From: a virus
DNA length: 21,248 bases
Virus record (IMG/VR): IMGVR_UViG_3300049995_000043
Location: 1-21,248 of that record
Direction: 5' to 3' (one strand)
Shown here one piece after another: positions 3 through 14,452 of this stretch. The position numbers and the translations under genes are program-made. How positions within the stretch are numbered: the stretch's first letter is position 1; the number at the start of each line of letters is the position of its first letter. Under the pieces are notes generated by a model, which saw only the letters and a program-made list of their open reading frames with translations, had not been told where the DNA came from and ran no database searches.

Positions 3-326
3 AAGATAGTAGATAAGATCGTTGAAAAGACAGTCGAGGTAAACAAACTCACTCCTGAACAGACTGCTGATCTTGCTTTTTTAGCAAAGCAGCGAGCTGA
101 CAAAAGGAATGAGATGATCTTAGGGATTCAGACCAATACCAGTAAAGAACTGTGGCCTGATGATGCACTCAAAATGATGAATGAAGATCTCCTGAAAAGG
201 ATCTTTGATTCTGTTAAGAAAGTGGAAGCTCCGGCAGATTACTCGTTAAATGGTAATTTTGTTGCTGGTGCTGTTACGGAGGAGCCTCTGTATCCTACTG
301 GTGTTGAAATAGAAATTAAAAAGTAA
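3..326 (+). CDS. Prohead protease/scaffold protein, C-terminal fragment (5' end outside the window)
   Basis: The frame is open from base 3 to the TAA at 324-326, giving 107 residues that continue a gene starting upstream; the internal ATG at 114 is not a credible start. The sequence is charged and helical, with a TPEQ turn and then a region around RADKRNEMILGIQ followed by DDALKMMNEDLLKRIF. This resembles the C-terminal tail of Mu-like protease/scaffold fusion proteins, where a residual scaffold segment ends in similar short helices. Its place directly before a decoration protein and the major capsid gene supports a role in procapsid assembly. The catalytic part is not visible, so protease activity is inferred from position and family resemblance; it could be scaffold only. 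Confidence 0.62.
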   Translation, partial: KIVDKIVEKTVEVNKLTPEQTADLAFLAKQRADKRNEMILGIQTNTSKELWPDDALKMMNEDLLKRIFDSVKKVEAPADYSLNGNFVAGAVTEEPLYPTGVEIEIKK

Positions 327-343: not shown

Positions 344-844
344 ATGGCATTTAACACTATTGTATTAAAAAATTACTCAGATCATTTTGAGGAATTTAAA
401 GCAAATGCAACCATTACACCTGGTATGTTACTACAGTCTCTGGAATCTAATAATGTTCAGGCACATGCAACGGCTGGAGGAAACTGTTTACCAATAATGT
501 TTGCTTGCGAAGATGGTCTTCAGGGTAAAGAGATACATGACAATTATGTTGCTGGGGATAAGGTAAAAGTTTGGTTACCTCTTCCTGGCGATATTGTCTA
601 TGCAGTCTTAGCTGATGGACAGCATGTTCACAACGGAGATCCACTTGAATCTAATGGTGCTGGATTTTTGCAGGCACATACAGCTGACAAAGAAGCTGAG
701 GGTTCAGGTTATGCAATTTCAGTATATCCCAAACAGATAGTTGGAATTGCTCTTGAAAATAAGAATCTGTCAGGTGAATCAAGTGCTGTTGAAAGTGAAG
801 GAACTCTTGGAACCAATCAGAGGATTCAGGTAAGAATTGTTTAA
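344..844 (+). CDS. Capsid decoration (head-stabilising) protein
   Basis: A 166-residue protein that likely binds the outside of the mature capsid and stabilises it. It opens with FNTIVLKNYSDHFEEF and a TPGMLL segment, then HATAGGN, AGDKVKVW, GDIVYAVLADG and LESNGAGFLQAH, in the order seen in phage decorator proteins placed next to capsid genes. The C-terminus (from about residue 140) is rich in Ser, Glu and Gly. No signal peptide or membrane segment is seen. It sits between the protease/scaffold and major capsid genes with a strong SD, as expected for a high-copy virion protein. Being surface-exposed, it is one plausible acceptor for the glycans made by the downstream cassette; that is inference. 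Confidence 0.82.
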   Translation: MAFNTIVLKNYSDHFEEFKANATITPGMLLQSLESNNVQAHATAGGNCLPIMFACEDGLQGKEIHDNYVAGDKVKVWLPLPGDIVYAVLADGQHVHNGDPLESNGAGFLQAHTADKEAEGSGYAISVYPKQIVGIALENKNLSGESSAVESEGTLGTNQRIQVRIV

Positions 845-868: not shown

Positions 869-1969
869 ATGTTCGAAACAAATGTGGATCTTATAATGAA
901 TGGTCAAGGGAGAGGAGAGGTAGCCAGTCTGCTTGCAAATAGTGGAAGGTTAAACCTTGGAAGCCTGCGCCCCTTCATTGGGAATGATGGAAGGACTTAT
1001 ATTACTGTATATAAAGGAGGGAATCCAAAGATTCCAACCAGTTACATAACACGTCCTATCCAAACCAACGGTACTCTCCGTAGGGATGAGTGGAAACAGT
1101 TGGATGCTGCTCTTGTAGAAGTAGCTCGTAACAGAATTGGTGGCTTTGATGATCTGGCTGCCAATGGGTTAGTTTATAACCTTGGAAATGCTATGGGTAC
1201 GACTATATTGGAATGGCATGACGTGAGTGATGCACTTGAGGCAACTATAACAATGGATGCTATTACTCGTGGAAAAAATGACCGCGTTGTGTTCCATACT
1301 AATTATTTGCCAATACCTATTATACATGTTGATTATGAAATCAACGCAAGAGAATTGGCTGCAAGTCGTAATCTGGGAAATCCATTGGATACTACTATGG
1401 TTGAACGTGCTGGTCGTAGGATAGCGGAAAAATTGGAGAAAATGTTATTTACCAATGATCCGTATTCTTATGGTGACGTAGATGATCGTAATCGGAATAC
1501 AATTTATGGTTATGTTAATTTCCCTGACCGTAATACAGTTAACTTGAGTATCCATTGGGATCACTCTGCTATGACCGCTGCTGGCATTTTACAGGATGTT
1601 TTAGAAATGAAACAGGCTAGTATTAATGCCTTACATTATGGTCCATGGCAGTTGTATATCCCAACGGCTTACGAAACCGTTCTGGATGATGACTATGATA
1701 CTACAACTCCTGGGACTACAATCCGTGAGAGAATTCTCAAGATTGCTGGGATAAAAGGTATCAAAGTTATTGATACACTTCCGGCTGATAATGTACTTTT
1801 GGTACAGTTAACATCTGATGTTGTACGGGTTGTACGTGGTATGGGAATCACTAATGTTGAATGGGGTGTAGAAGGTAACATGCTTACCAAATACAAAGTG
1901 ATGACTATCCAGGTTCCTCAGATCAGAAGTGATCAGAATGGCAAGTGTGGTATTGTTCATCTTGCATAG
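869..1969 (+). CDS. Major capsid protein, encapsulin-like HK97 fold
   Basis: A 366-residue protein that forms the icosahedral shell. The order of segments fits encapsulin-like phage capsid proteins: an N-terminal GQGRGEVASLL region, a RRDEWKQLD segment, a long central helix around ERAGRRIAEKLEKMLF (about 190-205) followed by IYGYVNFPDRN, and a C-terminal part with YIPTAYETVLDDDY and a final beta-rich stretch ending KCGIVHLA. There is no obvious long N-terminal delta domain, consistent with a separate scaffold upstream. A strong SD precedes it and a hairpin/T-tract follows it. The family assignment rests on motif pattern and gene order, without an alignment. Confidence 0.88.
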   Translation: MFETNVDLIMNGQGRGEVASLLANSGRLNLGSLRPFIGNDGRTYITVYKGGNPKIPTSYITRPIQTNGTLRRDEWKQLDAALVEVARNRIGGFDDLAANGLVYNLGNAMGTTILEWHDVSDALEATITMDAITRGKNDRVVFHTNYLPIPIIHVDYEINARELAASRNLGNPLDTTMVERAGRRIAEKLEKMLFTNDPYSYGDVDDRNRNTIYGYVNFPDRNTVNLSIHWDHSAMTAAGILQDVLEMKQASINALHYGPWQLYIPTAYETVLDDDYDTTTPGTTIRERILKIAGIKGIKVIDTLPADNVLLVQLTSDVVRVVRGMGITNVEWGVEGNMLTKYKVMTIQVPQIRSDQNGKCGIVHLA

Positions 1970-2011: not shown

Positions 2012-2371
2012 ATGGAACGTACAAAAAAAGTAGAAATCGTGGAAACATTAGATGATGGATCGATTCGTTGGAAAAAGGTTGGAGGAGGTTCTTTCAAATT
2101 AGGAAATCGACTTATTAAGCCTGGGCAAATATTTATAGCTCGACCAGAGGAAATTCCTTTGGCTTTTAGAGATGTGGTTGTTGCTCAAGATGCAATTCGT
2201 GAGCATACTCCTGAACCTATACCAGTTGTTAAATCAAAATATACAGTAAAACCTCATGGACAATCTAAGACTTGGTTTGATGTTGTAAATAATACTACTG
2301 GTAAAGTTCTCAACGAAAAGGGTATTAAAAAGGATGTTGCCGAACAGTTGAAACAGGATTTGGAGAAATGA
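2012..2371 (+). CDS. Conserved small protein following the capsid gene, function unknown
   Basis: A 119-residue soluble protein. Residues about 15-60 form one compact, probably beta-rich unit (SIRWKKVGGGSF, then IKPGQIF and PEEIPLAFRD). Residues about 76-119 form a second unit (YTVKPHG, WFDVVN, GKVLNEKG) ending in a charged helix. I recognise the first unit only as the kind of small protein that follows capsid genes in some phages and cannot name a function. The start has no SD, only an A/T-rich leader behind the hairpin at 1978-1998. Its stop overlaps the next start as ATGA, so it is translationally tied to the first gene of the glycan cassette. A head-joining or minor head role is possible. 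Confidence 0.6.
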   Translation: MERTKKVEIVETLDDGSIRWKKVGGGSFKLGNRLIKPGQIFIARPEEIPLAFRDVVVAQDAIREHTPEPIPVVKSKYTVKPHGQSKTWFDVVNNTTGKVLNEKGIKKDVAEQLKQDLEK

Positions 2372-3072
2372 TTTGGCAAGTCCCTCGGATGTGGGAAGGA
2401 GGAGATGTTTGGATAATAGGAGGGGGACCATCAATATCAAAGCAGTTTGGTATTCCGGATGAAGTTATACAGAGTGTATTGCAAGGGACTTCTCCTCTAA
2501 GTGTTTATTCCACTTATATGTCCTCAATACATGACAAGCATGTAATTGGTATTAATGTGGCCTATATGCTTGGTGACTGGGTGGATATAATATTCTTCGG
2601 GGATACAGGATTCTTTCTTCAACATCAAAAGGGATTAGCCAATTTTCCAAATTTAAGGGTTTCAAGTACACCACATACTGATAATATAGAATGGATTAAG
2701 TATGTGGCTAAAGATAGTACTCATTCTCGTGGGATCAGTCCTAATCCGAAGATGATTAGTTGGAATGGAAATAGTGGGGCTGCGGCAATAAGTTTAGCGG
2801 TACATACGGGAGCAAAGAGGATTGTACTATTAGGATTTGATATGAAACTAAATGGTAACAATGATCAACATTGGCATAATATTTATGGTAAGGCACATTT
2901 GGATGAAACAAAGATGCGAAAACTCCCATTTGATAGACATCTTAGAGGTTTTCCTGTTATAGCTCAGGATGCAAAACAAATGGGAGTTGAAATATTGAAT
3001 GCTAATCCAGATAGTGCCATAAATGATTTTCCAAAATTTTCAGTTAAAGAGTTGTTGATGAACAGTAGTTAA
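2368..3072 (+). CDS. MptE/DUF115-like Rossmann protein, possible glycosyltransferase
   Basis: A 234-residue protein and the first gene of the cassette. It has an N-terminal nucleotide-binding type loop GGGPS at residues 18-22. A second core motif runs from NSGAAA (135-140) to VLLGFDM (153-159), followed by HWH at 168-170. This arrangement is shared by DUF115/MptE-like proteins and resembles the GT42 sialyltransferase fold, where GxGPS and a later SG...A...G..I.L.GxD segment bind the donor. Relatives act on nucleotide-linked substrates, including flagellin-modifying Maf proteins. The neighbours suggest sugar transfer, but the exact reaction is not readable. It overlaps the previous gene by ATGA, with GGAG a few bases upstream, and ends one base before the next ATG. 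Confidence 0.65.
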   Translation: MIWQVPRMWEGGDVWIIGGGPSISKQFGIPDEVIQSVLQGTSPLSVYSTYMSSIHDKHVIGINVAYMLGDWVDIIFFGDTGFFLQHQKGLANFPNLRVSSTPHTDNIEWIKYVAKDSTHSRGISPNPKMISWNGNSGAAAISLAVHTGAKRIVLLGFDMKLNGNNDQHWHNIYGKAHLDETKMRKLPFDRHLRGFPVIAQDAKQMGVEILNANPDSAINDFPKFSVKELLMNSS

Positions 3073-3073
3073 G

Positions 3074-3862
3074 ATGAATGTAATAAACCTTTGTGGTGGA
3101 TTAGGAAATCAGTTATTTCAATATGCATTTGGCAGAGCACAGATGGCAACCGGCACTGAGGTTAAATTTGATGCTAGATGGTATAAGAAATTTCATATTC
3201 CATCTAGGTTATATGTATTGGATAAATTTTATGTCGATGTAAAATTAGGTCCATCTCTGTATCAGACAACTATTAAAGAAGGAGAATTTGATGCAACATT
3301 AATTAATGCTCGTGGATTTAATTTCAGAGGATATTGGCAGAATCCTGATTATTTCAAAGCAGTTTTACCGGAATTACGTAAAGAGTTTAGACTGAGAGAA
3401 GAGTTTTATACTGATGGATTTTTGGAGTTGAAGGAAAGGATAAGTAATAATAATTCAGTAGCGATCCATGTCAGACGGGGAGATTATGTAGGTAATAATG
3501 GATGGCGGGTATTGCCAATGGATTATTATTTACATGCATTAAAAATAGTGAAGGGATTGAAACAGGTGGATAAGGTTTACATTTTCAGTGACGATATAGA
3601 ATGGTGTCAGAGGAATTTTGGATGGGCAATTTATGATTGTAAAGGGATTGAAACAGTACATCTGGATGAATGTTTGGACTTTGAGTTAATGAAAGCATGT
3701 AAACATCAGATCATAGCAAATAGTACTTTTAGTTGGTGGGCAGCGGAATTGAATGAGAATCCAAATAAGATAATAATTACACCGGAACAATGGAATGTTA
3801 AAAAGGAACAAGAAGGAAGGTATAATACTTTTCTTTGTCCTGAGGGATGGGTTAAAGTTTAA
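3074..3862 (+). CDS. GT11 family fucosyltransferase (alpha-1,2 type)
   Basis: A 262-residue GT-B enzyme expected to transfer L-fucose from GDP-fucose onto a terminal sugar, usually galactose, in alpha-1,2 linkage. Family motifs are all present: GGLGNQLFQY at 8-17, HVRRGDY at 132-138 (GDP-fucose binding), FSDD at 171-174, a DFELMKACKH segment at 202-211 and ANSTFSWWAA at 215-224. The protein ends shortly after the last motif; its length is slightly below the usual range of about 280-300 residues but no core motif is missing. No membrane anchor is seen, so it should act in the cytosol. GDP-fucose would have to come from the host, since no synthesis gene is nearby. This is the clearest enzyme assignment in the cassette. 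Confidence 0.92.
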   Translation: MNVINLCGGLGNQLFQYAFGRAQMATGTEVKFDARWYKKFHIPSRLYVLDKFYVDVKLGPSLYQTTIKEGEFDATLINARGFNFRGYWQNPDYFKAVLPELRKEFRLREEFYTDGFLELKERISNNNSVAIHVRRGDYVGNNGWRVLPMDYYLHALKIVKGLKQVDKVYIFSDDIEWCQRNFGWAIYDCKGIETVHLDECLDFELMKACKHQIIANSTFSWWAAELNENPNKIIITPEQWNVKKEQEGRYNTFLCPEGWVKV

Positions 3863-3865
3863 AAT

Positions 3866-4603
3866 ATGTATGACATTATAATAACCATAGCGAGAAAGGA
3901 TTTTAACAAACTTCAGTTTGTAGTTAGTTCTATTATTAAAAATGTGCCAGGATTTCATAACATCTATTGCATTTCTAATATATCTATTCCTGACAGATAT
4001 CGAATAGATGGGATTCAATGCTTTATAGATGATGAAGTGATTGATTTTGATTTCTTTAACATACGTATGGTAAATCGAAGAGGTTGGTATAGACAACAGT
4101 TTATAAAACTTTTTCAAGGAATAACTGCTGATAATTATCTTGTAATAGATGGAGATGTATATATAAACAAACCTATGGAAATTAATACAGCACATCCTTA
4201 CTTTCTTTTGGGACGTGATCAACATCATTTACCATATTTTCAATTTATGAAGGATGTCTTTAATTTAGATCAGATGTATCCTCATTCATTTATAAGTGAA
4301 ATGATGTTTTTTAAACGGGGAATGATTGGGTTTATGCTTGATGAATTGAAGGTAGACAAATACCAATTTTTCAATATCTGTGCAAAGGAAATAAACAAAT
4401 TGAATGATCCATCTGGATTTTCTGAATATGAATTGTATGGTAACTATGTAACGAAGAATTGGCCTGATTTGTATCAGTACAAACAGTTAAAAACGATACC
4501 TACAGCTAAGAAACGAGAATGGACAGATGATGAAATAAGAGAACATATCCGTTTTTATTCCAGAGGAAATTATGATTTACTAACAATGCATTCATGGATA
4601 TAG
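3866..4603 (+). CDS. DUF6492-type glycosyltransferase
   Basis: A 245-residue protein with a GT-A-like plan. The N-terminal beta strand is YDIIITIARKD; GWYRQQFIKL at 73-82 is followed by the probable metal/nucleotide-binding DGD at 95-97 in YLVIDGDVYI. Later come HSFISEMMFF (140-149) and FSEYELYGNYV (185-195), all in the order typical of DUF6492 glycosyltransferases. Donor and acceptor are unknown. It starts 3 nt after the fucosyltransferase stop without an SD and overlaps the next gene by 10 nt, so expression is coupled. No signal peptide or membrane helix is visible. Confidence 0.75.
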   Translation: MYDIIITIARKDFNKLQFVVSSIIKNVPGFHNIYCISNISIPDRYRIDGIQCFIDDEVIDFDFFNIRMVNRRGWYRQQFIKLFQGITADNYLVIDGDVYINKPMEINTAHPYFLLGRDQHHLPYFQFMKDVFNLDQMYPHSFISEMMFFKRGMIGFMLDELKVDKYQFFNICAKEINKLNDPSGFSEYELYGNYVTKNWPDLYQYKQLKTIPTAKKREWTDDEIREHIRFYSRGNYDLLTMHSWI

Positions 4604-5478
4604 TAATGTTTCATAGTGGGGATGTATTTCCAGTATTCTTGGAAGATAATTTTAAGCAGTTAAGATTATTTAATCCAGACATAACTGTTTATTTTTTAAC
4701 GGATAAACAATGGTTGGGTGAAGAAATATTTAAAACATATAATATAATTCCTATAAATAAAGATGATTATTATTCACGTAAGATAGATAGTTTCCAAGTT
4801 TATTATGGATATGCTGATAAATCTAAAGACAATCAATTTTGGGTAGTAACTTCGTTACGTTTGATATATATTGAGAATTTTATGAAGTCTAATAAAATGA
4901 GGGATGTATATCATTTTGAAAATGATGTTTTATTGTACACTGATATTAAGGAACTACATAGTAAGTTTATTAAATTATATCCCCATTTGGCAATAACAGT
5001 TGGTGGTCCAGATAAATGTATAACGGGATTTATGTTTATTAAAAGCCATTTGGAACTTGAAGTAATGACTCAATTTTTCTTAGATGCTTTAATGAGACTT
5101 GGGAAAAGGAGAATTGTTGAAAGATATGGGATGGATATGGTTAATGAGATGACTATGATTAGGGCATATAGTAAGGATTATCCAGATAGAATACAATTTC
5201 TTCCAATATTACCGTTTGGTGAGTTCTCAATGAATTTCAATGAGTTTAATTCAATATTTGATCCAGCAAGTTGGGGACAATTCATTGGAGGTAATATACA
5301 AGAGAAAAAACCAGGATTGAAACCCGAGGATCATTACATAGGACAATTACTTAGGAGACATCCAGAATATACTGTGATTTGGAAACAAGGAATACCTTAT
5401 TTCAAATATGATGGACAGGAAGTGAAGATAAATAATTTACATATTCATTCGAAGAATTTACATTCATATATAAGTTAA
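4594..5478 (+). CDS. Probable GT-A fold glycosyltransferase, family not recognised
   Basis: A 294-residue soluble protein. It opens with a short strand (MDIVMFHSGD), and residues 20-45 look like the sugar-nucleotide binding region (LFNPDITVYFLTD). A segment FWVVTSLRLIYIENFM (82-97) leads into HFENDVLLY, where END at 109-111 is placed like the DxD motif of GT-A enzymes. A GGP turn and ITGFMFIKS follow, as in enzymes that recognise acceptor loops. It ends NNLHIHSKNLH, a pattern similar to the closing HIHSK strand of some phage and capsule glycosyltransferases. Donor, linkage and family cannot be named. It starts inside the previous gene and its stop shares a base with the next start (TAATG). 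Confidence 0.6.
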   Translation: MDIVMFHSGDVFPVFLEDNFKQLRLFNPDITVYFLTDKQWLGEEIFKTYNIIPINKDDYYSRKIDSFQVYYGYADKSKDNQFWVVTSLRLIYIENFMKSNKMRDVYHFENDVLLYTDIKELHSKFIKLYPHLAITVGGPDKCITGFMFIKSHLELEVMTQFFLDALMRLGKRRIVERYGMDMVNEMTMIRAYSKDYPDRIQFLPILPFGEFSMNFNEFNSIFDPASWGQFIGGNIQEKKPGLKPEDHYIGQLLRRHPEYTVIWKQGIPYFKYDGQEVKINNLHIHSKNLHSYIS

Positions 5479-6299
5479 TGACAAAAGAGGAATTTATATC
5501 AGGTGACAAGTTTTGGAAGATTGCAGATTTTATTTATTCGGCTGATGCCAAAGAGGATTGCAATAGACTTCCTAATACTTTTGAAACCTGTTGTTTAAAA
5601 TCTGTTAGTATAGTTTATACTCACACAATGTATGTAAAACAGTTGTTTGATATTATAAGACCTTTAAATAAGAAGTTTATTATAATTACTCATAACTGTG
5701 ATATTAACGTAGATAATTCTTTTATTGTACCTGATAATGTGATACATTGGTTTGCGCAGAATGTAAATGTAGTAGATCCAAGAATAGAATCTATTCCAAT
5801 AGGATTGGAAAATGATCGTTGGTATCCTGCGTTGCATAAGAAGGATAAGATGATAATAAAATTAATGCAACCACGATCTTATCGGAATCTTGTTTACATG
5901 AATTATGCGGTAAATACTAACCTTACTGAACGTATTAGGCCTTATCAGTTATTGGAAAACAAAGCATGGGTAACAACTGAACGAGGAGTTAATGGATATG
6001 AATTTGATAATTATATTGATAATATTTATAGGCATAAGTATGTGATTTGTCCACAGGGTAACGGGATGGATACACATAGGATATGGGAAGCACTTTATAT
6101 GGGGTCAGTTCCGATAGTAAAACAGGATACTAATAATTGGTTTTATAATGATATGCCTATATTGTATGTCCACAAATGGGAAGAGGTAAATAGGGAAATG
6201 TTGGAAGAGATGTGGGATACATACCATTTAGGAGAATGGAACAATAAGAAATTAATTTTTAGTTATTGGAAAAATAGGATAATAAATTATGACAAGTAA
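5478..6299 (+). CDS. Exostosin-like glycosyltransferase (GT47-type)
   Basis: A 273-residue protein. The key region is YVICPQGNGMDTHRIWEALY (188-207) followed by MGSVPIV (208-214), closely resembling the exostosin motif in which a short loop and a conserved acidic residue bind the UDP moiety. IPIGLEND at 106-113 precedes it. The N-terminal half is a Rossmann-like region (SIVYTHTMY, KFIIITHNC). Exostosins in animals extend glycosaminoglycans and plant GT47 enzymes build cell-wall glycans; bacterial and phage members are mostly untested, so donor and linkage are unknown. It is coupled by TAATG to the previous gene and overlaps the next by 11 nt. No signal anchor is seen, unlike the eukaryotic enzymes. 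Confidence 0.75.
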   Translation: MTKEEFISGDKFWKIADFIYSADAKEDCNRLPNTFETCCLKSVSIVYTHTMYVKQLFDIIRPLNKKFIIITHNCDINVDNSFIVPDNVIHWFAQNVNVVDPRIESIPIGLENDRWYPALHKKDKMIIKLMQPRSYRNLVYMNYAVNTNLTERIRPYQLLENKAWVTTERGVNGYEFDNYIDNIYRHKYVICPQGNGMDTHRIWEALYMGSVPIVKQDTNNWFYNDMPILYVHKWEEVNREMLEEMWDTYHLGEWNNKKLIFSYWKNRIINYDK

Positions 6300-6978
6300 G
6301 GAATTATGTGATCATGTTCAACAATGTATTGTTGAAGCAGGTAATAAAAAATCTAAATTGCCATCAGAAGGTTTTCCATTAGAGGGGATGACTGTTTTAA
6401 ATAATTGTCATTTGTTAAATAATATATGTAATTGTAAAGATGTTAATTATTTGGAAATTGGACTTTTCAAAGGTACTTCTTTCATATCTTCTTTATTTCA
6501 TAATAAAATAAATTCGGCTTATGTTTGTGATAATTGGAGTGAGGAATTGAGAGGTTTGAGAGGAATAATGAAAAGACATTATAAACAAATAGGAGAATCT
6601 AATTTCTTACGTAATTGTGCTCATTATAATATTACAGGTTTTACTCTTTTTTCAAGAGATTCATTTACAATACCATTAAATGAGATTAAACATAAAATAA
6701 ATGTCTATTTTTATGATGGTGATCATCCTATGGAATCCTCTCGTAAATCTTTAACTTACTTTTATCCTGTTTTGGATGATACTTTTATATTTATAGTAGA
6801 TGATTGGAAATGGGATTTTGTTGCAAAGGGTGTAAGACAGGGAATAGAAGAATGTAAGTTTAAAATTGATTATGAACAATATTTGGATTGGGGTAATGGT
6901 TTTACGGTTTTTGTTTTAAATAAAAATGAAATAAATAATGCACGTAAACTCGAAGTTGGTCATTTGGGTAACGAGTGA
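6289..6978 (+). CDS. Class I SAM-dependent methyltransferase (Methyltransf_24-like)
   Basis: A 229-residue Rossmann methyltransferase. SAM-binding motif I is YLEIGLFKGTSF at 54-65. YDGDH at 142-146 and VDDW at 170-173 match the acidic motifs of the Methyltransf_24/sugar O-methyltransferase group, where they bind metal or the substrate hydroxyl. In a glycosyltransferase cassette the likely substrate is a sugar hydroxyl or a side chain on the glycan. It starts 11 nt inside the exostosin-like gene. Its last 41 nt overlap the next gene, so the tail after about residue 212 (NEINNARKL onward) is shared with that start region and may be a recent extension. Low local GC suggests a different history from the head genes. 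Confidence 0.75.
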   Translation: MTSKELCDHVQQCIVEAGNKKSKLPSEGFPLEGMTVLNNCHLLNNICNCKDVNYLEIGLFKGTSFISSLFHNKINSAYVCDNWSEELRGLRGIMKRHYKQIGESNFLRNCAHYNITGFTLFSRDSFTIPLNEIKHKINVYFYDGDHPMESSRKSLTYFYPVLDDTFIFIVDDWKWDFVAKGVRQGIEECKFKIDYEQYLDWGNGFTVFVLNKNEINNARKLEVGHLGNE

Positions 6979-8188
6979 TTGTAATTTAGATTGCTCACTC
7001 TGTAATCAGAAATATACTAGAACAGTATATGCTGGTTATCAAATGCCTATGAGTGAAGTACAGCATATTGTTGATTCATGTAAGAAACGAGGTATTTATT
7101 TTAGTGTTATTGAAATAACAGGAGGGGAAGTTACATTATGGGAAAATCTTGAAGAAGGTGTTGAAGCATTATGGGAAATTACAGATGATATATTTTTTGT
7201 AACAAATGGCAATAATCCTAAACGAGTTATAAATTTAGGATTGAAACATTGGATATTATCAACAAGTCAAGCTACAAAGGAGCAGATTAAAGAATATAAA
7301 AATTATCTTCCACAAATGGGGGTTAACGGTCATGCTCATAAACCAGTATATAGAGAACCTATTCTAGGTACTTTGCCAGCTATGTGTGTAGCAGGGATAT
7401 CACCTTTTAATTCCAAAGTGAGAGAGAATTCCATAGAATATTTAAAAGGGAAGGTTTATTATTGTAATTCCATCTTTCCGTTGAGTTGTAAGATGCCATT
7501 AACAGATGATTTAGTATGTGATTTTGAAGATGATTTTCTAACTAAATACAAAAATAGGAGATTTGATAAAAAGGTTTGTCAGATTTGTTTATGTAATAGT
7601 AGAGTATGGAGTCGGGTTCCAGAGGTTAATAGGAAAGTAAAAATTAATGGGAAATCATTAACAGGATTATTTGCAGAGAAAGGAATTGGATATTATAATA
7701 CTGATAAGGGAACTGATCATAACTATTTAAAAATTTATGATAGACTATTCTTACCATATAAAAATAAAAAGATAAATGTATTTGAAGCAGGATTTGCTCA
7801 GGGTGGAAGTTGTAAGTTATGGGAGGATTATTTTACAAAAGCTAATATAAGATTTATTGATTATGATAAAAATTGCAAACTTGAATCTACTTCTGGTCGA
7901 GTTAGACTTGATATTATAGAAATTGGAATGTTAACGACTGATTATTTCAATGATTTTCCACCTGACATAGCAATAGATGACAGTAGTCATAAATTAAATG
8001 ATCAACTATGTTTTATTAAAAAAGTTTATCCTGCCTTGCGAAAAGGTGGATTATTAATTGTTGAGGATATTATAAATATTGAAAAATATTTTATATATTT
8101 TAAACATTTAGGAATTCCATTTGAAATAATGGATCAAAGGAAAGAACAGAATAGAACAGATAATGTATTATTGATATTTAGAAAATGA
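6938..8188 (+). CDS. Radical SAM enzyme fused to a C-terminal class I methyltransferase
   Basis: A 416-residue two-domain protein. Residues 1-225 form a radical SAM domain: Cys15, Cys19 and Cys22 make the CX3CX2C [4Fe-4S] motif in DCNLDCSLC, GGE lies at 62-64, and VTNGN at 88-92. Six later Cys (176, 184, 194, 214, 217, 219) could hold an auxiliary Fe-S cluster in SPASM/Twitch fashion. Residues about 240-416 form a methyltransferase of the MycE/TylE sugar O-methyltransferase type: DKGTDHNYLKIYDRLF at 256-271, VFEAGFAQGGS at 281-291 and IDDSSH at 346-351. The reaction is unknown; a radical step plus O-methylation of a sugar is the natural guess. An in-frame TAA at 6932 leaves ATG 6938 as the first possible start. 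The stop overlaps the next gene by ATGA. Confidence 0.82.
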   Translation: MHVNSKLVIWVTSDCNLDCSLCNQKYTRTVYAGYQMPMSEVQHIVDSCKKRGIYFSVIEITGGEVTLWENLEEGVEALWEITDDIFFVTNGNNPKRVINLGLKHWILSTSQATKEQIKEYKNYLPQMGVNGHAHKPVYREPILGTLPAMCVAGISPFNSKVRENSIEYLKGKVYYCNSIFPLSCKMPLTDDLVCDFEDDFLTKYKNRRFDKKVCQICLCNSRVWSRVPEVNRKVKINGKSLTGLFAEKGIGYYNTDKGTDHNYLKIYDRLFLPYKNKKINVFEAGFAQGGSCKLWEDYFTKANIRFIDYDKNCKLESTSGRVRLDIIEIGMLTTDYFNDFPPDIAIDDSSHKLNDQLCFIKKVYPALRKGGLLIVEDIINIEKYFIYFKHLGIPFEIMDQRKEQNRTDNVLLIFRK

Positions 8189-9012
8189 ATACAATACCTA
8201 AAATATGTCATTTGTACTGGGACAAGTCACCAATGTCCTTATTGCAAACATTTACGGTATTGTCCTTTCATAGGCATAATCCTGATTGGAGAATTAAGGT
8301 TTACCTAACCAAACAATCATTAGAAGAGATGGGTAAAAATATCTTTACAAAGGATTATACTGGAAAGGATTATTTTCATCTAATTAAGACTTTGGATTAC
8401 GTTGAGTTTGAAGAGATTGATTTAATTGAATGGAAAATAAATACAAAGGTTCATTCCTGTCAAAGTTCAGACATATTTCGCAGGAATATATTATATAAAG
8501 AAGGTGGAGTGTATTCAGATTTTGATAATATTTGGCTTAAACCAATAGATCATATTAGGGAAGTAGATTGTATAGGTAATCCAAATAATTTTGAAACTAT
8601 TGTTTGTTTTTATGAGTTTACAAAAGGATTTCATAATATTTCAAACTTAATATCTGAACCTAACAGTCCATTCATTTATTCATTGATCGTCAGGCAGGAA
8701 AAGATACATGCTCCTTATCATCATCAATCATTTGGTTCTGTTATGTTAAATAAAAAATATTCTAATTGGGATTCAATAGCAACTAGATATCCAAGAGTAC
8801 TTGCTATCAGGTATGAAACATTCTATCCATATTGTATTTTTAATTTGGAACAATTATACAAAAAGGATGAATTGAATTGTCTTAATAATAAGAATGTGAT
8901 AGGAATACATTGGTTTAATGGGCATGAATTTAGCAAAGATTATGTAAATAACGATGGTTATAAAAGGAAATGCAGTATGACTTCAGTGTTGAAAAAGGAA
9001 GGATATATATGA
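8185..9012 (+). CDS. GT32-family glycosyltransferase (OCH1/capsule type)
   Basis: A 275-residue GT-A enzyme. It begins IPKICHLYWDKSPM (4-17), the usual opening strand of GT32 proteins, and carries the diagnostic SSDIFRRNILY (94-104) followed by GGVYSDFD (107-114), where DFD is the DxD motif that binds Mn2+ and the sugar nucleotide. A GIHWFNGHEF segment near the C-terminus fits the last core strand with the conserved His/Trp. Family members transfer mannose, galactose or related sugars in yeast glycans and bacterial capsules; the donor here is not predictable. It is joined to both neighbours by ATGA overlaps. No membrane anchor is present, unlike yeast OCH1. Confidence 0.85.
   Translation: MNTIPKICHLYWDKSPMSLLQTFTVLSFHRHNPDWRIKVYLTKQSLEEMGKNIFTKDYTGKDYFHLIKTLDYVEFEEIDLIEWKINTKVHSCQSSDIFRRNILYKEGGVYSDFDNIWLKPIDHIREVDCIGNPNNFETIVCFYEFTKGFHNISNLISEPNSPFIYSLIVRQEKIHAPYHHQSFGSVMLNKKYSNWDSIATRYPRVLAIRYETFYPYCIFNLEQLYKKDELNCLNNKNVIGIHWFNGHEFSKDYVNNDGYKRKCSMTSVLKKEGYI
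8995..9003 (+). promoter_or_regulatory. Shine-Dalgarno-like site that decides the GT2 start at 9009
   Basis: AAGGAAGGA lies 5 nt before ATG 9009. An upstream in-frame ATG at 8970 would add 13 residues inside the previous gene and has no such site, so 9009 is preferred. Confidence 0.65.
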
Positions 9013-9788
9013 TTTCAATAGTTATAGCATATTATAACCGAAAGGAATTGTTTCACAGGACTTTACAGTCAATAACTGAGTCTATTTGTAAGGACTTTGA
9101 GGTTATTGTTGTAGATGATGCCAGTAGAGAAGAAGAGAGATTAGAGGATTTGGTAGATAAATTTCCTTTCTTAAAATTGATTCGAGTAGAGAAAAAAGAT
9201 AAATGGTATAAGAATTCTTGTATTCCATACAATATGGGTATTGCTAAAGCCAAAGGGGATATTATTATATTACAGAATCCAGAATGTTTACATACGCAGG
9301 ATATATTAACTTTTGTGACGGAAAGAATTGATGATAGTAGATATCTTACAATGTCTTGTTATGCAATTAATGAAGATATAACAAAAAATATTTTACCTTT
9401 TGTTAATCCATTAAGTCTATTAGAAATACTTCCTAAGCAAACAGTCACCAACTATTTAGGATGGTACAATCATTCAATATATAATCCTTGTTATTTTCAT
9501 TTCTGTGCAGCACTTACTAAGTATAATATGAACAAACTTGGAGGATTTGATGAGAGGTTTGCTTCTGGTATTGGTTATGAGGATAATGAGTTTCTTGAAA
9601 GAATTAAAAGAACCAACTTAAGAATGATAATTGTTGATAAGGTATCTGTAATACATCAATGGCATCCTAAAGTGTATGATCTTGATCTTTCTAATGAACA
9701 TAGAATGTTATATAATATAAATGCAAAACTTCGTGCCAAAGTGAGGAGGGAAAAAGAAGTTGTAAAAGTAAATAATAGTTATGTCTAA
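9009..9788 (+). CDS. GT2-family glycosyltransferase with galactosyltransferase-type C-terminus
   Basis: A 259-residue GT-A enzyme from ATG 9009, chosen because MISIVIAYYN is the standard first strand of GT2 enzymes, an SD precedes it, and it gives an ATGA overlap with the GT32 gene. VVDDAS at 34-39 binds the nucleotide. NPE at 90-92 (in ILQNPECLH) stands where most GT2 enzymes have DxD. GGFDERFASGIG at 178-189 with YEDNEF at 190-195 is the acceptor/catalytic segment seen in Glyco_transf_7C galactosyltransferase-like domains, and HQWHP is at 216-220. The linkage made is unknown. It overlaps the next gene by 8 nt. Confidence 0.82.
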   Translation: MISIVIAYYNRKELFHRTLQSITESICKDFEVIVVDDASREEERLEDLVDKFPFLKLIRVEKKDKWYKNSCIPYNMGIAKAKGDIIILQNPECLHTQDILTFVTERIDDSRYLTMSCYAINEDITKNILPFVNPLSLLEILPKQTVTNYLGWYNHSIYNPCYFHFCAALTKYNMNKLGGFDERFASGIGYEDNEFLERIKRTNLRMIIVDKVSVIHQWHPKVYDLDLSNEHRMLYNINAKLRAKVRREKEVVKVNNSYV

Positions 9789-11073
9789 CAGACCTACCAT
9801 AATATTAGTATTACGTACAGGAGGAGATTTTGCCTACCGTGATGTGGAGCTTATAGTAAAACATATTAATGGTAAATGGCAATCCCTAGTGCGTCCACGT
9901 ATTATCTGTTTGTATGACAAGGTTTCAATGAAATATGATTTAGGGAATGTTGAGTTACATCCACTCACAAACGATTATCCAGGTACTTGGTCAAGAATAC
10001 AACTATATAGTCCTGAAATGGAACAATATCGTCCATTCCTTTATATTGATCTTGATACTGCTATTATTCAATCTCTGGAAAATGTATTTGATTTGGTTGA
10101 AGATCCTACAAAGTTTATTACATTGGAAGACTTTTGGCAGAGAGGACAACTTGCAACGGGACTGGCTTGGATACCTGCTAAGTCAGAAAAGGTAAGTACA
10201 ATTTGGAATCTGTTTAAAGGTAATATGGGGAGTAGGATGGATCGTTATATTCGTTCTGTAACCACAGCTGATGCGTACTGGCAGCATTTAACGGATACAA
10301 TACATGACTTCAAGCCAAAAGGAGGGAAGTTACTCACACAGTTGCATCCGCGAACTTGTATAGTATGCTTCCATGGAAAACCACGCATATTTACAATCGT
10401 GGAGGGTTCAATGACAATTAATTGGGTTAAAGAATATGTAGATACCACTTTTACTGCAAAACCCGTTAAATCGCTTGTAACCGTTATCATTCCTTATAAT
10501 AGAGATCGTGGTTGGTTAAAAGATGCTATAGCAAGTGTTCCTGAAGGAGTACAGTTAATATTAAGTAAAGGAGACGGTAATTGGCCAATGAATTTTAATA
10601 AAGGTCTTGCAGAGGCTACAGGTACTTATATTAAATATTTACATGAGGATGATATGCTCACACCTAATTGCATAGAGGATTCAATTAATGCAATTGAAGA
10701 ACAGGGTGTAGATTTTATTCATGGGAATGCAATTGAAATAATTCAAGGAACAGGAAAGGAACATGTGTATATACCAAGAGAGAAATTTCCAACTGAGACG
10801 TCCTTATTAAAGAAGAATGTTATTCATAGTGCTACTGTTATGTATCACAGAAGGGTATTTGAAAAAGTAGGATTATTTAATGAGGCATTGGAATTGAAAT
10901 CTTTTGAGGAATATGAATTTAATTTGCGTTGTTTGAAGGCAGGATTAAAGATAGGATATTGTAATACGACATTGGCTTATTATCGCAGACATCCTGAACA
11001 GATAATTAGAACAGTAAATAATGTTGAAAGAAATAAGAATAGGAACGAAATATTGCATAAATTTATGATATGA
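9781..11073 (+). CDS. Tandem glycosyltransferase: N-terminal GT-A (DLDT) domain fused to a GT2 domain
   Basis: A 430-residue protein with two sugar-transfer domains. Residues 1-220 resemble a GT8/glycogenin-like GT-A domain: a first strand PTIILVLRTGG, then YIDLDTAII with DLDT at 90-93 as the metal-binding motif, and HGKPR at 198-202 as the late His motif. Residues 230-430 form a GT2 domain: VTVIIPYN at 233-240, LHEDDMLTP with EDD at 289-291, and a FEEYEFNLRCLKAG segment in the catalytic-base region. Bifunctional enzymes of this type can add two sugars in sequence or build a disaccharide repeat. Order and donors are unknown. It starts 8 nt inside the previous gene and overlaps the sulfotransferase gene by ATGA. 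Confidence 0.82.
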   Translation: MSNRPTIILVLRTGGDFAYRDVELIVKHINGKWQSLVRPRIICLYDKVSMKYDLGNVELHPLTNDYPGTWSRIQLYSPEMEQYRPFLYIDLDTAIIQSLENVFDLVEDPTKFITLEDFWQRGQLATGLAWIPAKSEKVSTIWNLFKGNMGSRMDRYIRSVTTADAYWQHLTDTIHDFKPKGGKLLTQLHPRTCIVCFHGKPRIFTIVEGSMTINWVKEYVDTTFTAKPVKSLVTVIIPYNRDRGWLKDAIASVPEGVQLILSKGDGNWPMNFNKGLAEATGTYIKYLHEDDMLTPNCIEDSINAIEEQGVDFIHGNAIEIIQGTGKEHVYIPREKFPTETSLLKKNVIHSATVMYHRRVFEKVGLFNEALELKSFEEYEFNLRCLKAGLKIGYCNTTLAYYRRHPEQIIRTVNNVERNKNRNEILHKFMI

Positions 11074-11747
11074 TTGAAAAGGCACCTATATTGCTTACAG
11101 GGATACCAAGGTCAGGTACTTCAATTATTGCAGGAGTTATGAAACAATGTGGAGCATTCATTGGTAATATATCTAAACGTGGAATGTATGAAAATGATAA
11201 TATAAAGAACCATATTGTCAAACCATATTTTTATCGTATTGGTGCTGATCCAAATGGGCAATTTCCTATACCTGAAACAAAAGGTTTGCCAATCCCAGGG
11301 AATTGGAGAGAAAGAGTTGAGAAGATAATAATTATGGAAGGTTATAATGAATGGGAGACTGAAGGTAAACAATGGATTTATAAAGGTACAGGGATGAGTT
11401 TAATTTGGCCTGTTTGGCATAATGCTTTTCCCAATGCTAAATGGATTATTGTGCGTAGAAGGACAGGTGATGTGATACAGTCGTGTTTGAAAACAACATA
11501 TATGAAAGCCTACAATGATATTGATGGTTGGAAAGGTTGGATTCATCAATATGAGAAGAAGTTTGTGGAAATGATAGAAGCCGGAGTTAATTGTAAAATA
11601 ATGTGGCCGGAACGTATGGTACGTGGAGATTTTCAACAGATGAAAGAAGTATTAGAATGGGTAGGATTACAATGGAAGGATGAAGTAGTAGATTTTGTAA
11701 ATCCATTGTTTTGGAATAGTAGACAAAAAGAAAGGGGGATAACATAA
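11070..11747 (+). CDS. PAPS-dependent sulfotransferase family protein
   Basis: A 225-residue P-loop-like sulfotransferase and the last gene of the cassette. TGIPRSGTS at 10-18 is the 5'-phosphosulfate binding loop, and WIIVRRRTGDVIQSCLKT at 125-142 carries the Arg and Ser positions of the 3'-phosphate binding site. The family moves sulfate from PAPS to hydroxyl groups of sugars, proteins or small molecules; with ten glycan enzymes upstream, a sugar hydroxyl is the best guess. At 225 residues it is compact and lacks the membrane anchor of Golgi enzymes. PAPS must come from the host. Its stop shares a base with the start of the connector gene (TAATG), so the cassette passes straight back into the structural operon. 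Confidence 0.85.
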   Translation: MIEKAPILLTGIPRSGTSIIAGVMKQCGAFIGNISKRGMYENDNIKNHIVKPYFYRIGADPNGQFPIPETKGLPIPGNWRERVEKIIIMEGYNEWETEGKQWIYKGTGMSLIWPVWHNAFPNAKWIIVRRRTGDVIQSCLKTTYMKAYNDIDGWKGWIHQYEKKFVEMIEAGVNCKIMWPERMVRGDFQQMKEVLEWVGLQWKDEVVDFVNPLFWNSRQKERGIT

Positions 11748-12130
11748 TGGCAGTATTAGCAACGTATGGTGATGTACAAACATTAATTGATGATTCAGCA
11801 ATTAGTTCTACTTACATTACAAGTGTATTAACTACGGTGGATCTTATCTTAACTAAGATCTATAAGGATAGTGATTGTGTAATAAGTGATGAATTGCTTA
11901 CAGAATTACAGAAGTATTTTGCAGCTCATATTATTGCATCTACCACATCAAGGATGGCTAGAGTTGAGAAACTTGGGGATGCTCAGGTTGAATATATAGG
12001 GAAATTTGGGGTAGGATTGGATCTTACTCCTTATGGACAGATGTTAAAACTTCTTGATCCATGTGGATTAATTGCTAAAACTGGAAAACAGGCAGCAAGT
12101 ATTTATGCAGTTAAAAACTTTGAGGACTAA
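11747..12130 (+). CDS. Head-tail connector/adaptor protein
   Basis: A 127-residue, mostly helical protein. It opens AVLATYGDVQTLIDDS, a usual start for gp6/gp15-type adaptor proteins, and has the AAHIIASTTSRM helix and a GLDLTPYGQMLKLLDPCG segment like that of DUF4054-type adaptors. It should bind the portal ring and form the first neck layer. It is preceded by AAGGGGG, a usable SD, and coupled by TAATG to the sulfotransferase before it and to the stopper-like gene after it. It is the first gene of the neck/tail module, so it marks the 3' edge of the inserted cassette. Confidence 0.76.
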   Translation: MAVLATYGDVQTLIDDSAISSTYITSVLTTVDLILTKIYKDSDCVISDELLTELQKYFAAHIIASTTSRMARVEKLGDAQVEYIGKFGVGLDLTPYGQMLKLLDPCGLIAKTGKQAASIYAVKNFED

Positions 12131-12534
12131 TGGGAATGGAAAATTTCATAGCAAGGCAATGTACACAGACCTGCGTCTATTGGGGTAATCCAGTGAATGA
12201 CGGAGAAAATCATTTTACGTTTGATAATCCTGTGGAGATACTATGTAGATGGGAAGGTAAAGTTCAGATTGTAAAAGACTGGGATGCAAAAGGAGGTGAA
12301 GTAGAATGTGTTGCAATGGTTTATGTTTTGCAGGATTTGGATAAAGAAGGATTTTTATTCTTGGGTACATTGGACGATCTATTGGATAGTAGTGGAGATA
12401 GTAGTGGAGAATATTATGATCCAATGGTACTGGAAGGGGCTTATAGAATAAAACAATTTGAAAAGATCCCTGCTCTTAAATCAACAACGGAATTTATAAG
12501 AAAGGCATTTTTATCACAATGGAATTATAGATAA
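12130..12534 (+). CDS. Probable head closure (stopper) protein
   Basis: A 134-residue beta-rich protein. Residues about 10-80 alternate short strands (CVYWGNP, VEILCRWEGK, VECVAMVYVL, FLFLGTLDDL), consistent with the small barrel of head-closure proteins such as SPP1 gp16 or the minor capsid proteins at this position. A short acidic/Ser-Gly insert DSSGDSSGE lies near residues 86-94, encoded by a perfect 12-bp tandem repeat. YRIKQFEKIPAL near the C-terminus matches the last strand region. Assignment rests mainly on order: connector, this gene, gp10-like protein. ATG 12136 is an alternative start; 12130 gives the TAATG overlap. Confidence 0.62.
   Translation: MGMENFIARQCTQTCVYWGNPVNDGENHFTFDNPVEILCRWEGKVQIVKDWDAKGGEVECVAMVYVLQDLDKEGFLFLGTLDDLLDSSGDSSGEYYDPMVLEGAYRIKQFEKIPALKSTTEFIRKAFLSQWNYR
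12385..12408 (+). repeat. Perfect 12-bp tandem duplication inside the stopper-like gene
   Basis: GATAGTAGTGGA occurs twice without a break (12385-12396 and 12397-12408) and encodes DSSG-DSSG in a probable surface loop. Confidence 0.85.
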
Positions 12535-13517: not shown

Positions 13518-13961
13518 ATGTCAAGTAAAGCAATCGCTGGCGTAGGGACAAAGTTTCGCAGGTGGAGTGGATCTGCCTGGGCTTCCCTCGCTGAGGTAAA
13601 CTCGATTAAAGGTCCTGGTATGTCAAGAAGTCCAATAGATGTAACGTCTTTGGATTCTATTGGGGGTTATCGAGAGTTTATTGCTGGATTTCGTTCTGCG
13701 GGTACAATAACACTTACAATGAACTTCACACGTCATTCATTTGACTTGATGTTCGACGATTTTGAAAGTGATGTGGCTCAATTTTACGAAATTATTCTGC
13801 CAGACGTAGAGGAAACTACACTAGAATTCGAAGGTCTGGTAACTGAATGTCCGCTTAGCATTCCAACTGATGACAAAGTCACAGTAGATGTTACCATTCA
13901 GATTACAGGACAGCCTGTTGTTAATTCAGGCTCAGGTTCAGGTACTGGTACAGTACATTAA
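13518..13961 (+). CDS. Major tail (tube) protein
   Basis: A 147-residue, beta-rich protein that stacks as hexamers to form the tail tube. WSGSAWASLAEVNSIKGPG near the N-terminus, SPIDVTSLDS and the GGYREFIAGFRSAGTI loop (about 49-64), and late strands TLEFEGLVTECPLSIPTDD and VTVDVTIQITGQP are typical of gpV/TP901-type tube proteins. The last 11 residues are a flexible Gly/Ser/Thr tail (NSGSGSGTGTVH region) that would lie at the surface and could carry O-linked sugar; that is inference. There is no separate sheath gene, so the tail is non-contractile. A strong SD precedes it and a hairpin/T6 follows it. Confidence 0.88.
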   Translation: MSSKAIAGVGTKFRRWSGSAWASLAEVNSIKGPGMSRSPIDVTSLDSIGGYREFIAGFRSAGTITLTMNFTRHSFDLMFDDFESDVAQFYEIILPDVEETTLEFEGLVTECPLSIPTDDKVTVDVTIQITGQPVVNSGSGSGTGTVH

Positions 13962-13969
13962 TCTTTGGT

Positions 13970-13990
13970 TCACTAATCAAGTGATTTTTT
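13970..13990 (+). terminator. Hairpin with T6 tract after the tail-tube gene
   Basis: TCACT-AATCA-AGTGA forms a 5-bp stem with a 5-nt loop, followed by six T. Loop and T-tract match the element behind the capsid gene at 1978-1998, while one stem pair is swapped (C-G for G-C), which keeps pairing. It lies in the 56-nt gap before the chaperone gene. Likely a partial terminator or RNA 3'-end signal. Confidence 0.65.
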
Positions 13991-14017
13991 ATTATAAACA
14001 ATTAAAAATTTAATCAA

Positions 14018-14452
14018 ATGGGAAAATTATTAGATCGCAAGAAACTTCTCGAAAAAGAGAAACTTGAAGTTGCTAAGGTAAATTTTGAGGATGGTGATTT
14101 TGTTTATGTACGTCAAATGACAGGACATGAACGTGATGCTTTTGAAGGAACCTTGTTAAAAAAGAAAAGGGATGCAAAAGGAACGATAACCAGTTATGAA
14201 CAGAATACTGAGGATTATAGAGCAAAATTAGCAGTACAAACTATTTGTGATGAAAAGGGTGAATTGATAATGGATGAAAAGGATTGGTCTATTTTGAGTC
14301 ATAACATGAGTGCAAAGAGACTTGAAACAATTATAAACAAAGCACAGGAATTAAACAAGATATCAGAAGAGGATAAGGAGGGATTGGTAAAAAACTCAGA
14401 AGCCGTCCTGGACGGCAATTCCAATTTAGACTCTGTAGAGAAGTCGGAGTAA
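14018..14452 (+). CDS. Tail assembly chaperone, short form (gpG-like)
   Basis: A 144-residue charged, helical protein (GKLLDRKKLLEKEKLEV at the start, FEDGDFVYVRQMTGHERDAFEG, LAVQTICDEKGELIMDEKDW, then IINKAQELNKISEEDKEGL). This is the plan of gpG-like chaperones that coat the tape measure during tail assembly and are absent from the finished virion. The leader has no SD, only an A/T-rich run after the hairpin at 13970-13990. Ribosomes that do not slip at 14389-14395 end at TAA 14450; those that do make the longer GT protein. Confidence 0.8.
   Translation: MGKLLDRKKLLEKEKLEVAKVNFEDGDFVYVRQMTGHERDAFEGTLLKKKRDAKGTITSYEQNTEDYRAKLAVQTICDEKGELIMDEKDWSILSHNMSAKRLETIINKAQELNKISEEDKEGLVKNSEAVLDGNSNLDSVEKSE

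Follow-up and report, generated by a model that had tools for sequence, protein, structure and literature searches.

A hypervariable glycan-enzyme locus between the capsid and connector genes of an uncultured phage lineage, with Ser-rich virion loops as candidate acceptors

In the present study, a block of eleven adjacent open reading frames (ORFs), most of them resembling glycan-building or glycan-modifying enzymes, was compared with the same junction in related phages, and the number of genes in the junction was found to vary together with the length and Ser content of a loop in the head decoration protein. The block is probably a virion-glycan ("phage serotype") locus, acting on Ser residues of virion surface loops. 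The window, i.e. the whole stretch of DNA analysed, is a linear virus record of 21,248 bp (G000) and is a fragment.

The cassette in the window

The gene row of the window comprises the decoration protein, the major capsid protein (MCP), g119, the eleven cassette ORFs (g1 to g11), con1 to con3, a tail terminator, the tail-tube protein, chaperones, a tape measure and a tail protein (Table 1). All eleven ORFs, spanning 2368-11747, are present at the positions and on the strand given in a preliminary description of this DNA, and the location it reported between capsid and connector genes was borne out by profile searches of the flanks, which identified the decoration protein, MCP, tail terminator and tail-tube protein. 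The stop/start overlaps it had read at both ends were also observed, with ATGA at the entry, where the end of g119 (2371) overlaps the start of g1 (2368), and TAATG at the exit, where position 11747 is both the last of g11 and the first of con1. The GC content drops to 28-31% in the middle of the cassette (g3-g9), and that of the bookend genes (34-37%) is like that of the backbone. The small gene g119, located between MCP and g1, is part of the locus.

Table 1. Features of the window (nucleotide positions unless residues are indicated)
Feature	Position	Strand	Match	Remark
Head decoration protein	344..844	+	phrog_766 1e-10; PDB 9ocb_H "capsid decoration protein" 9e-6, residues 15-111	
Ser-rich loop of decoration protein	residues ~138-159			NKNLSGESSAVESEGTLGTNQ; ahead of last strand; candidate main acceptor
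MCP	869..1969	+	DUF6260 1.5e-16; phrog_771	Anchor for comparison
g119	2012..2371	+		Small two-domain protein directly 5' of g1
g1	2368..3072	+	PF01973 1.2e-4; phrog_4603 5e-31	Maf_flag10/GT42-like transferase; proposed Ser initiator
g2	3074..3862	+	GT11 4.3e-26	Fucosyltransferase family
g3	3866..4603	+	DUF6492 1.9e-5	GT-like; DGD motif
g4	4594..5478	+	No confident family match	GT-A-like motif END
g5	5478..6299	+	GT47/RXYLT1_C-like 3.2e-8	
g6	6289..6978	+	Methyltransf_24 8.8e-6; phrog_1458 1.5e-23	
g7	6938..8188	+	Radical_SAM 1.4e-8; phrog_21658 2e-13	Radical SAM (CxxxCxxC) fused to C-terminal methyltransferase-like domain
g8	8185..9012	+	GT32 (Gly_transf_sug) 1.5e-9	DXD sugar-binding
g9	8970..9788	+	GT2 with Glyco_transf_7C 1.9e-15	
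g10	9781..11073	+	phrog_1962 5e-22; GT2 2.6e-9	Two GT domains in one ORF
g11	11070..11747	+	PF13469 (Sulfotransfer_3) 5.9e-8	PAPS-type sulfotransferase; 3' bookend
con1	11747..12130	+	DUF4054 0.02 (weak)	Head-tail adaptor-like; downstream anchor, kept in relatives
con2	12130..12534	+		Connector protein; loop LLDSSGDSSGEYYDP, possible second acceptor
Tail-tube protein	13518..13961	+	Phage_TTP_11 3e-11	C-tail VNSGSGSGTGTVH, possible acceptor

The enzyme families assigned in the preliminary description were right in substance by profile, except that "GT-A-like" for g4 comes from motifs alone and that the label MptE is less apt for g1. Profile searches yielded no family for g4, the sole cassette ORF without a confident one, which accompanies g3 in relatives. 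The counterpart of g10 is split into two separate ORFs in L005, L006, L012, L019 and L029. A PADLOC match of g7 to viperin (2.9e-7) spans residues 9-93 only and was rejected as generic radical-SAM similarity. The terms fucosylated, O-methylated and sulfated describe the enzyme families and not the product.

The score of g1 against PF01973 (MptE-like) is 22.3 bits, under the Pfam gathering cut-off of 34.6, and its best phage family, phrog_4603, is annotated as "alpha-2,3-sialyltransferase". The predicted structure (AF2 pLDDT 95.5) has a CstII-like fold (Foldseek match to 1ro8, E 2.7e-6, probability 1.00, although TM is only 0.46-0.48); an archaeal MptE-type pyrophosphokinase follows as a weaker match after CstII and its relatives. 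Maf enzymes, which O-glycosylate Ser/Thr of bacterial flagellin, contain PF01973 as their Maf_flag10 domain, and this domain is CstII-like (PMC11339370). For g1, GT42/Maf-like is a better label than MptE. A match to JBP1 was weak (0.019) and was discarded. Among eleven large relatives, CTP_transf_3 (the CMP-sugar synthetase family), as a nonulosonate donor gene, was found in just one, and the sugar donor of g1 could come from the host. That relative (G010, the L061 contig) carries CTP_transf_3 at 49073-49669 and a thymidylate-synthase-like gene at 13729-14073, the only such genes among the eleven.

The g119 gene was detected in 77 of the 84 junctions described below, and its fold had no match in PDB; at a guess, it is a targeting partner for g1. 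Duplication of g119 inside the junction, alone or together with g1, was seen in L022, L031, L043, L072 and L081, and an additional gene of one common family (~240-290 aa) lies between MCP and g119 in L017 and L064. In phage D3, the small orf6.5 (L082:4771-5058) occupies the same position between MCP and the g1 homologue and is a possible distant counterpart.

The junction across relatives

The first set consisted of 80 viral contigs with MCPs 60-73% identical, mapped by tblastn, to which genome-contig loci were added; after four further scans, the collection comprised 146 distinct MCPs, with 84 junctions that could be used. Many contigs are fragments and ORFs were counted mechanically, and the cassette gene numbers are approximate. 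As the preliminary description had suggested, relatives were compared at the same junction, and a variable cassette ranging from empty to loaded was observed. In the 40 complete junctions of the first set, the distance from MCP to the connector genes ranges from 121 to 9,781 bp with 0-13 genes, and the cargo falls into 95 families, 59 of which occur in a single locus only. Despite this turnover, order was kept in 532 of 537 cases (99%) for families co-occurring in at least three loci. The layout has g1 (DUF115/GT42-like) first, a sulfotransferase usually last and turnover in between: g1 was detected in 73 of the 84 junctions, including all 66 with at least three cargo genes, and a sulfotransferase in 69. 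In a census of 242 cargo ORFs, there were 33 Sulfotransfer_3, 25 GT2, 15 Methyltransf_24, 14 FkbM, 13 MptE-like and 11 NAD-epimerase matches, together with GT11, GT9, GT32 and GT47.

Empty or near-empty junctions were found in L214, L243, L089, L137 and L171, and in the cultured Brevundimonas phage MaInes. A sulfotransferase occurs without g1 in L053, L092, L127, L156 and L202, which suggests that sulfation can stand alone and may have another target, protein or otherwise. The preliminary description regarded the full set as unusual; within this lineage it is not, sets of 5-13 such genes being found in many relatives, but among phages generally the arrangement does look unusual. Literature searches on phage sulfotransferases and similar loci gave no match. 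As regards the host, relatives of the MCP occur in bins of Bacteroidota, Balneolales, Spirochaetota, Puniceicoccales and Syntrophomonadaceae, but the inspected flanks of the largest contig, L092, hold phage-like ORFs only.

Shine-Dalgarno sites precede 87-97% of the MCP, decoration and tail-tube genes, 54% of con1 genes and 18% of cargo genes; strong sites on structural genes and scarce ones on cargo are expected if the enzymes share an operon with the structural proteins. Moreover, in eleven relatives of 56-78 kb, all 20 matches to GT2 (10) and Sulfotransfer_3 (10), the two families covered by this genome-wide test, lie in the junction or at most 2.6 kb away, the margin being needed because two junctions were cut by the fetched locus; the junctions make up 11% of the sequence of these relatives. 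A GT2-like ORF outside the junction was seen in the L092 phage (L280:6996-8438), which is not among the eleven.

Ser-rich loops and tails as candidate acceptors

Inspection of C-termini revealed that the last strand of the decoration protein is preceded by a loop rich in Ser, Gly and Asp, which is long at loaded loci and short at empty ones. Across 84 loci, loop length correlated with cargo gene number (rho 0.67, p 2e-12), as did the Ser count of the loop (rho 0.60), whereas loop Thr did not. Independent contrasts on the MCP tree gave r 0.48 (p 5e-6) for loop length and r 0.44 for Ser, and r 0.37 (p 1e-3) when only the loci that carry g1 were considered. As this pattern had emerged from the first set, a second test was run on 44 separate loci with MCPs less than 90% identical to that set, and rho values of 0.55 (loop length) and 0.58 (Ser) were obtained. 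Ser constitutes 22% of the loop and 5.6% of the rest of the protein, and the loop holds 3.7 Ser in loci with g1 versus 0.8 in those without. Among the control proteins, MCP, g119, con3 and the tail terminator showed no length trend with gene number, but three other lengths did trend, namely con2 (rho 0.53), the non-loop part of the decoration protein (0.41) and, weakly, con1 (0.25, p 0.02). Part of the loop trend may therefore reflect subclade or capsid type, and the decoration loop shows the strongest, but not the sole, length trend.

The C-tail of the tail-tube protein is also Ser/Gly-rich in most loci with g1, with 2.9 Ser versus 0-1 in loci without it, the latter being few (11), with a usable tail in only the four scored. 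Three loci (L113, L150 and L217) carry g1, yet have neither a Ser loop nor a Ser tail. The con2 loop was rejected as a general acceptor; it is Ser-rich in some loci only, and its Ser content is unrelated to that of the decoration loop (rho -0.02). Loop Tyr is slightly commoner where a sulfotransferase is present (p 0.04, uncorrected for kinship), which bears on Tyr sulfation of the decoration loop, and 3-mers common to the loop and tail of the same phage are only marginally above those of mismatched pairs (p 0.046). We infer that the loop Ser residues are sugar-bearing sites. Judged from sequence, the co-occurrence of bigger enzyme sets with longer Ser-rich loops suggests that these phages cover their own virions with sugars that vary and are often sulfated.

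Alternative explanations and known systems

The GT families of the cargo overlap with capsule and O-antigen genes, and NDP-sugar epimerases and dehydratases are also among the cargo; both observations would suit enzymes that remodel a host envelope glycan, for receptor masking or superinfection exclusion, like those of serotype-converting phages. However, no flippase, polymerase, lipid-carrier transferase or export gene was found among the Pfam families listed for the cargo, and a hydropathy scan revealed no clear membrane proteins, as 476 of 482 ORFs lack a hydrophobic segment over the cut-off and the other six barely exceed it. The locus also lies within the structural operon, and co-variation with a virion loop is not predicted by envelope remodelling, which we regard as unlikely. 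Glycosylation of phage DNA bases has a precedent, as phage GTs commonly glucosylate phage DNA (PMC12619734), but the sulfotransferase and the structural position fit it poorly; a thymidylate-synthase-like gene (PF00303) is present in one of the eleven large relatives, and Tet/JBP (PF12851) in none of them by a search run without a positive control. This explanation appears highly improbable.

The junction might alternatively be a neutral landing site (a moron island) and the Ser loop a flexible linker whose lengthening coincides with the same subclades. The low GC of the middle genes, the many singleton families and the correlated lengths of con2 and the non-loop decoration protein are in keeping with this explanation, but the commonest cargo Pfam families are, with few exceptions, enzymes of glycan or methyl transfer, and the conserved order, the presence of g1 in every loaded junction, the Ser enrichment of the loop and the contrasts that remain significant within loci carrying g1 argue against it, so that we find it improbable. 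None of these alternatives predicts the loop result as directly as virion glycosylation. Decoration of virion proteins, as the preliminary description had read the block, is best supported, given the Ser-loop co-variation, the confinement of GT2 and sulfotransferase matches and the lack of clear membrane components, but the mimicry of mucin or capsule that it also raised is unsupported.

Herein, we propose that the cassette would be co-transcribed with the capsid operon and that g1, as a cytosolic Maf/GT42-like enzyme, would add the first sugar to Ser of exposed loops, its targets being the decoration loop, the tail-tube C-tail and perhaps con2. GTs (GT11, GT32, GT47, GT2 and others) would then lengthen the glycan in the cytosol, methyltransferases would alter it and the sulfotransferase would often cap it, and gain and loss of middle genes could give each phage a differing coat. 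The order of enzyme action, the glycan structure and its purpose, whether shielding or surface binding, are likewise part of this proposal.

Among known systems, the virions of mycobacteriophages Che8, Corndog and Myrna are described as glycosylated by phage-encoded GTs (Freeman et al. 2023, as cited in PMC12363180, PMC12619734 and PMC11256854), with glycans at the C-termini of capsid and tail-tube proteins according to the same three papers. As far as these accounts go, phage-encoded GTs are shared with the present lineage and the C-terminal sites may correspond to its Ser/Gly-rich tail-tube tail. The mycobacteriophages are described as having a single GT or a few each, located in Maravista close to the genomic 3' end, whereas here up to 13 genes, including a sulfotransferase and a Maf-like gene, lie at one capsid-side site; the mycobacteriophage glycans were measured and those considered here are predicted from sequence. 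The Maf flagellin O-glycosyltransferases, which modify Ser/Thr of a surface filament protein, share the PF01973 match and CstII-like fold with g1, but g1 (234 aa) lacks the extra Maf domains and does not reach the Pfam cut-off, and a nonulosonate pathway was not seen here.

Homologues of g1 are also present in phages P1 (pmgO) and, as "alpha-2,3-sialyltransferase" genes, D3 (orf7) and PAJU2 (gp10), and pmgQ, in the pmg cluster of P1, is a homologue of the first half of g10. In D3 and PAJU2, the g1 homologue lies beside capsid/connector genes, in D3 between MCP and the adaptor with a methyltransferase nearby; unlike the present lineage, these phages have two or three such genes, and no sulfotransferase was seen. 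Both pmgO and pmgQ are non-essential in the laboratory (PMC10695390). The homologues of g1 and of the first half of g10 are near each other in P1 (L277, NC_005856) and adjacent in XacN1 (L278, ORF373-375), which suggests an old working pair beyond this lineage.

Bacterial capsule (K) and O-antigen loci resemble the junction in having fixed outer genes and a hypervariable middle, but the present locus has no export or polymerisation genes among the families listed, would act in the cytosol and lies inside a virion operon. There is, in our estimation, an even chance that the junction is the phage counterpart of a bacterial capsule locus, i.e. an island of hypervariable content just downstream of the capsid gene by which every phage would acquire a distinct virion coat, often a sulfated one, with one Maf-like starter acting on Ser-rich loops that have evolved in step with the cassette. 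If this is true, virion glycosylation, familiar from a few phages of actinobacteria, would extend to a broad lineage of uncultured phages, and phages would diversify the surface chemistry of their particles as bacteria diversify their capsules. Moreover, candidate acceptor sites would have been named, and the P1 homologues pmgO and pmgQ would open the idea to testing in a laboratory strain.
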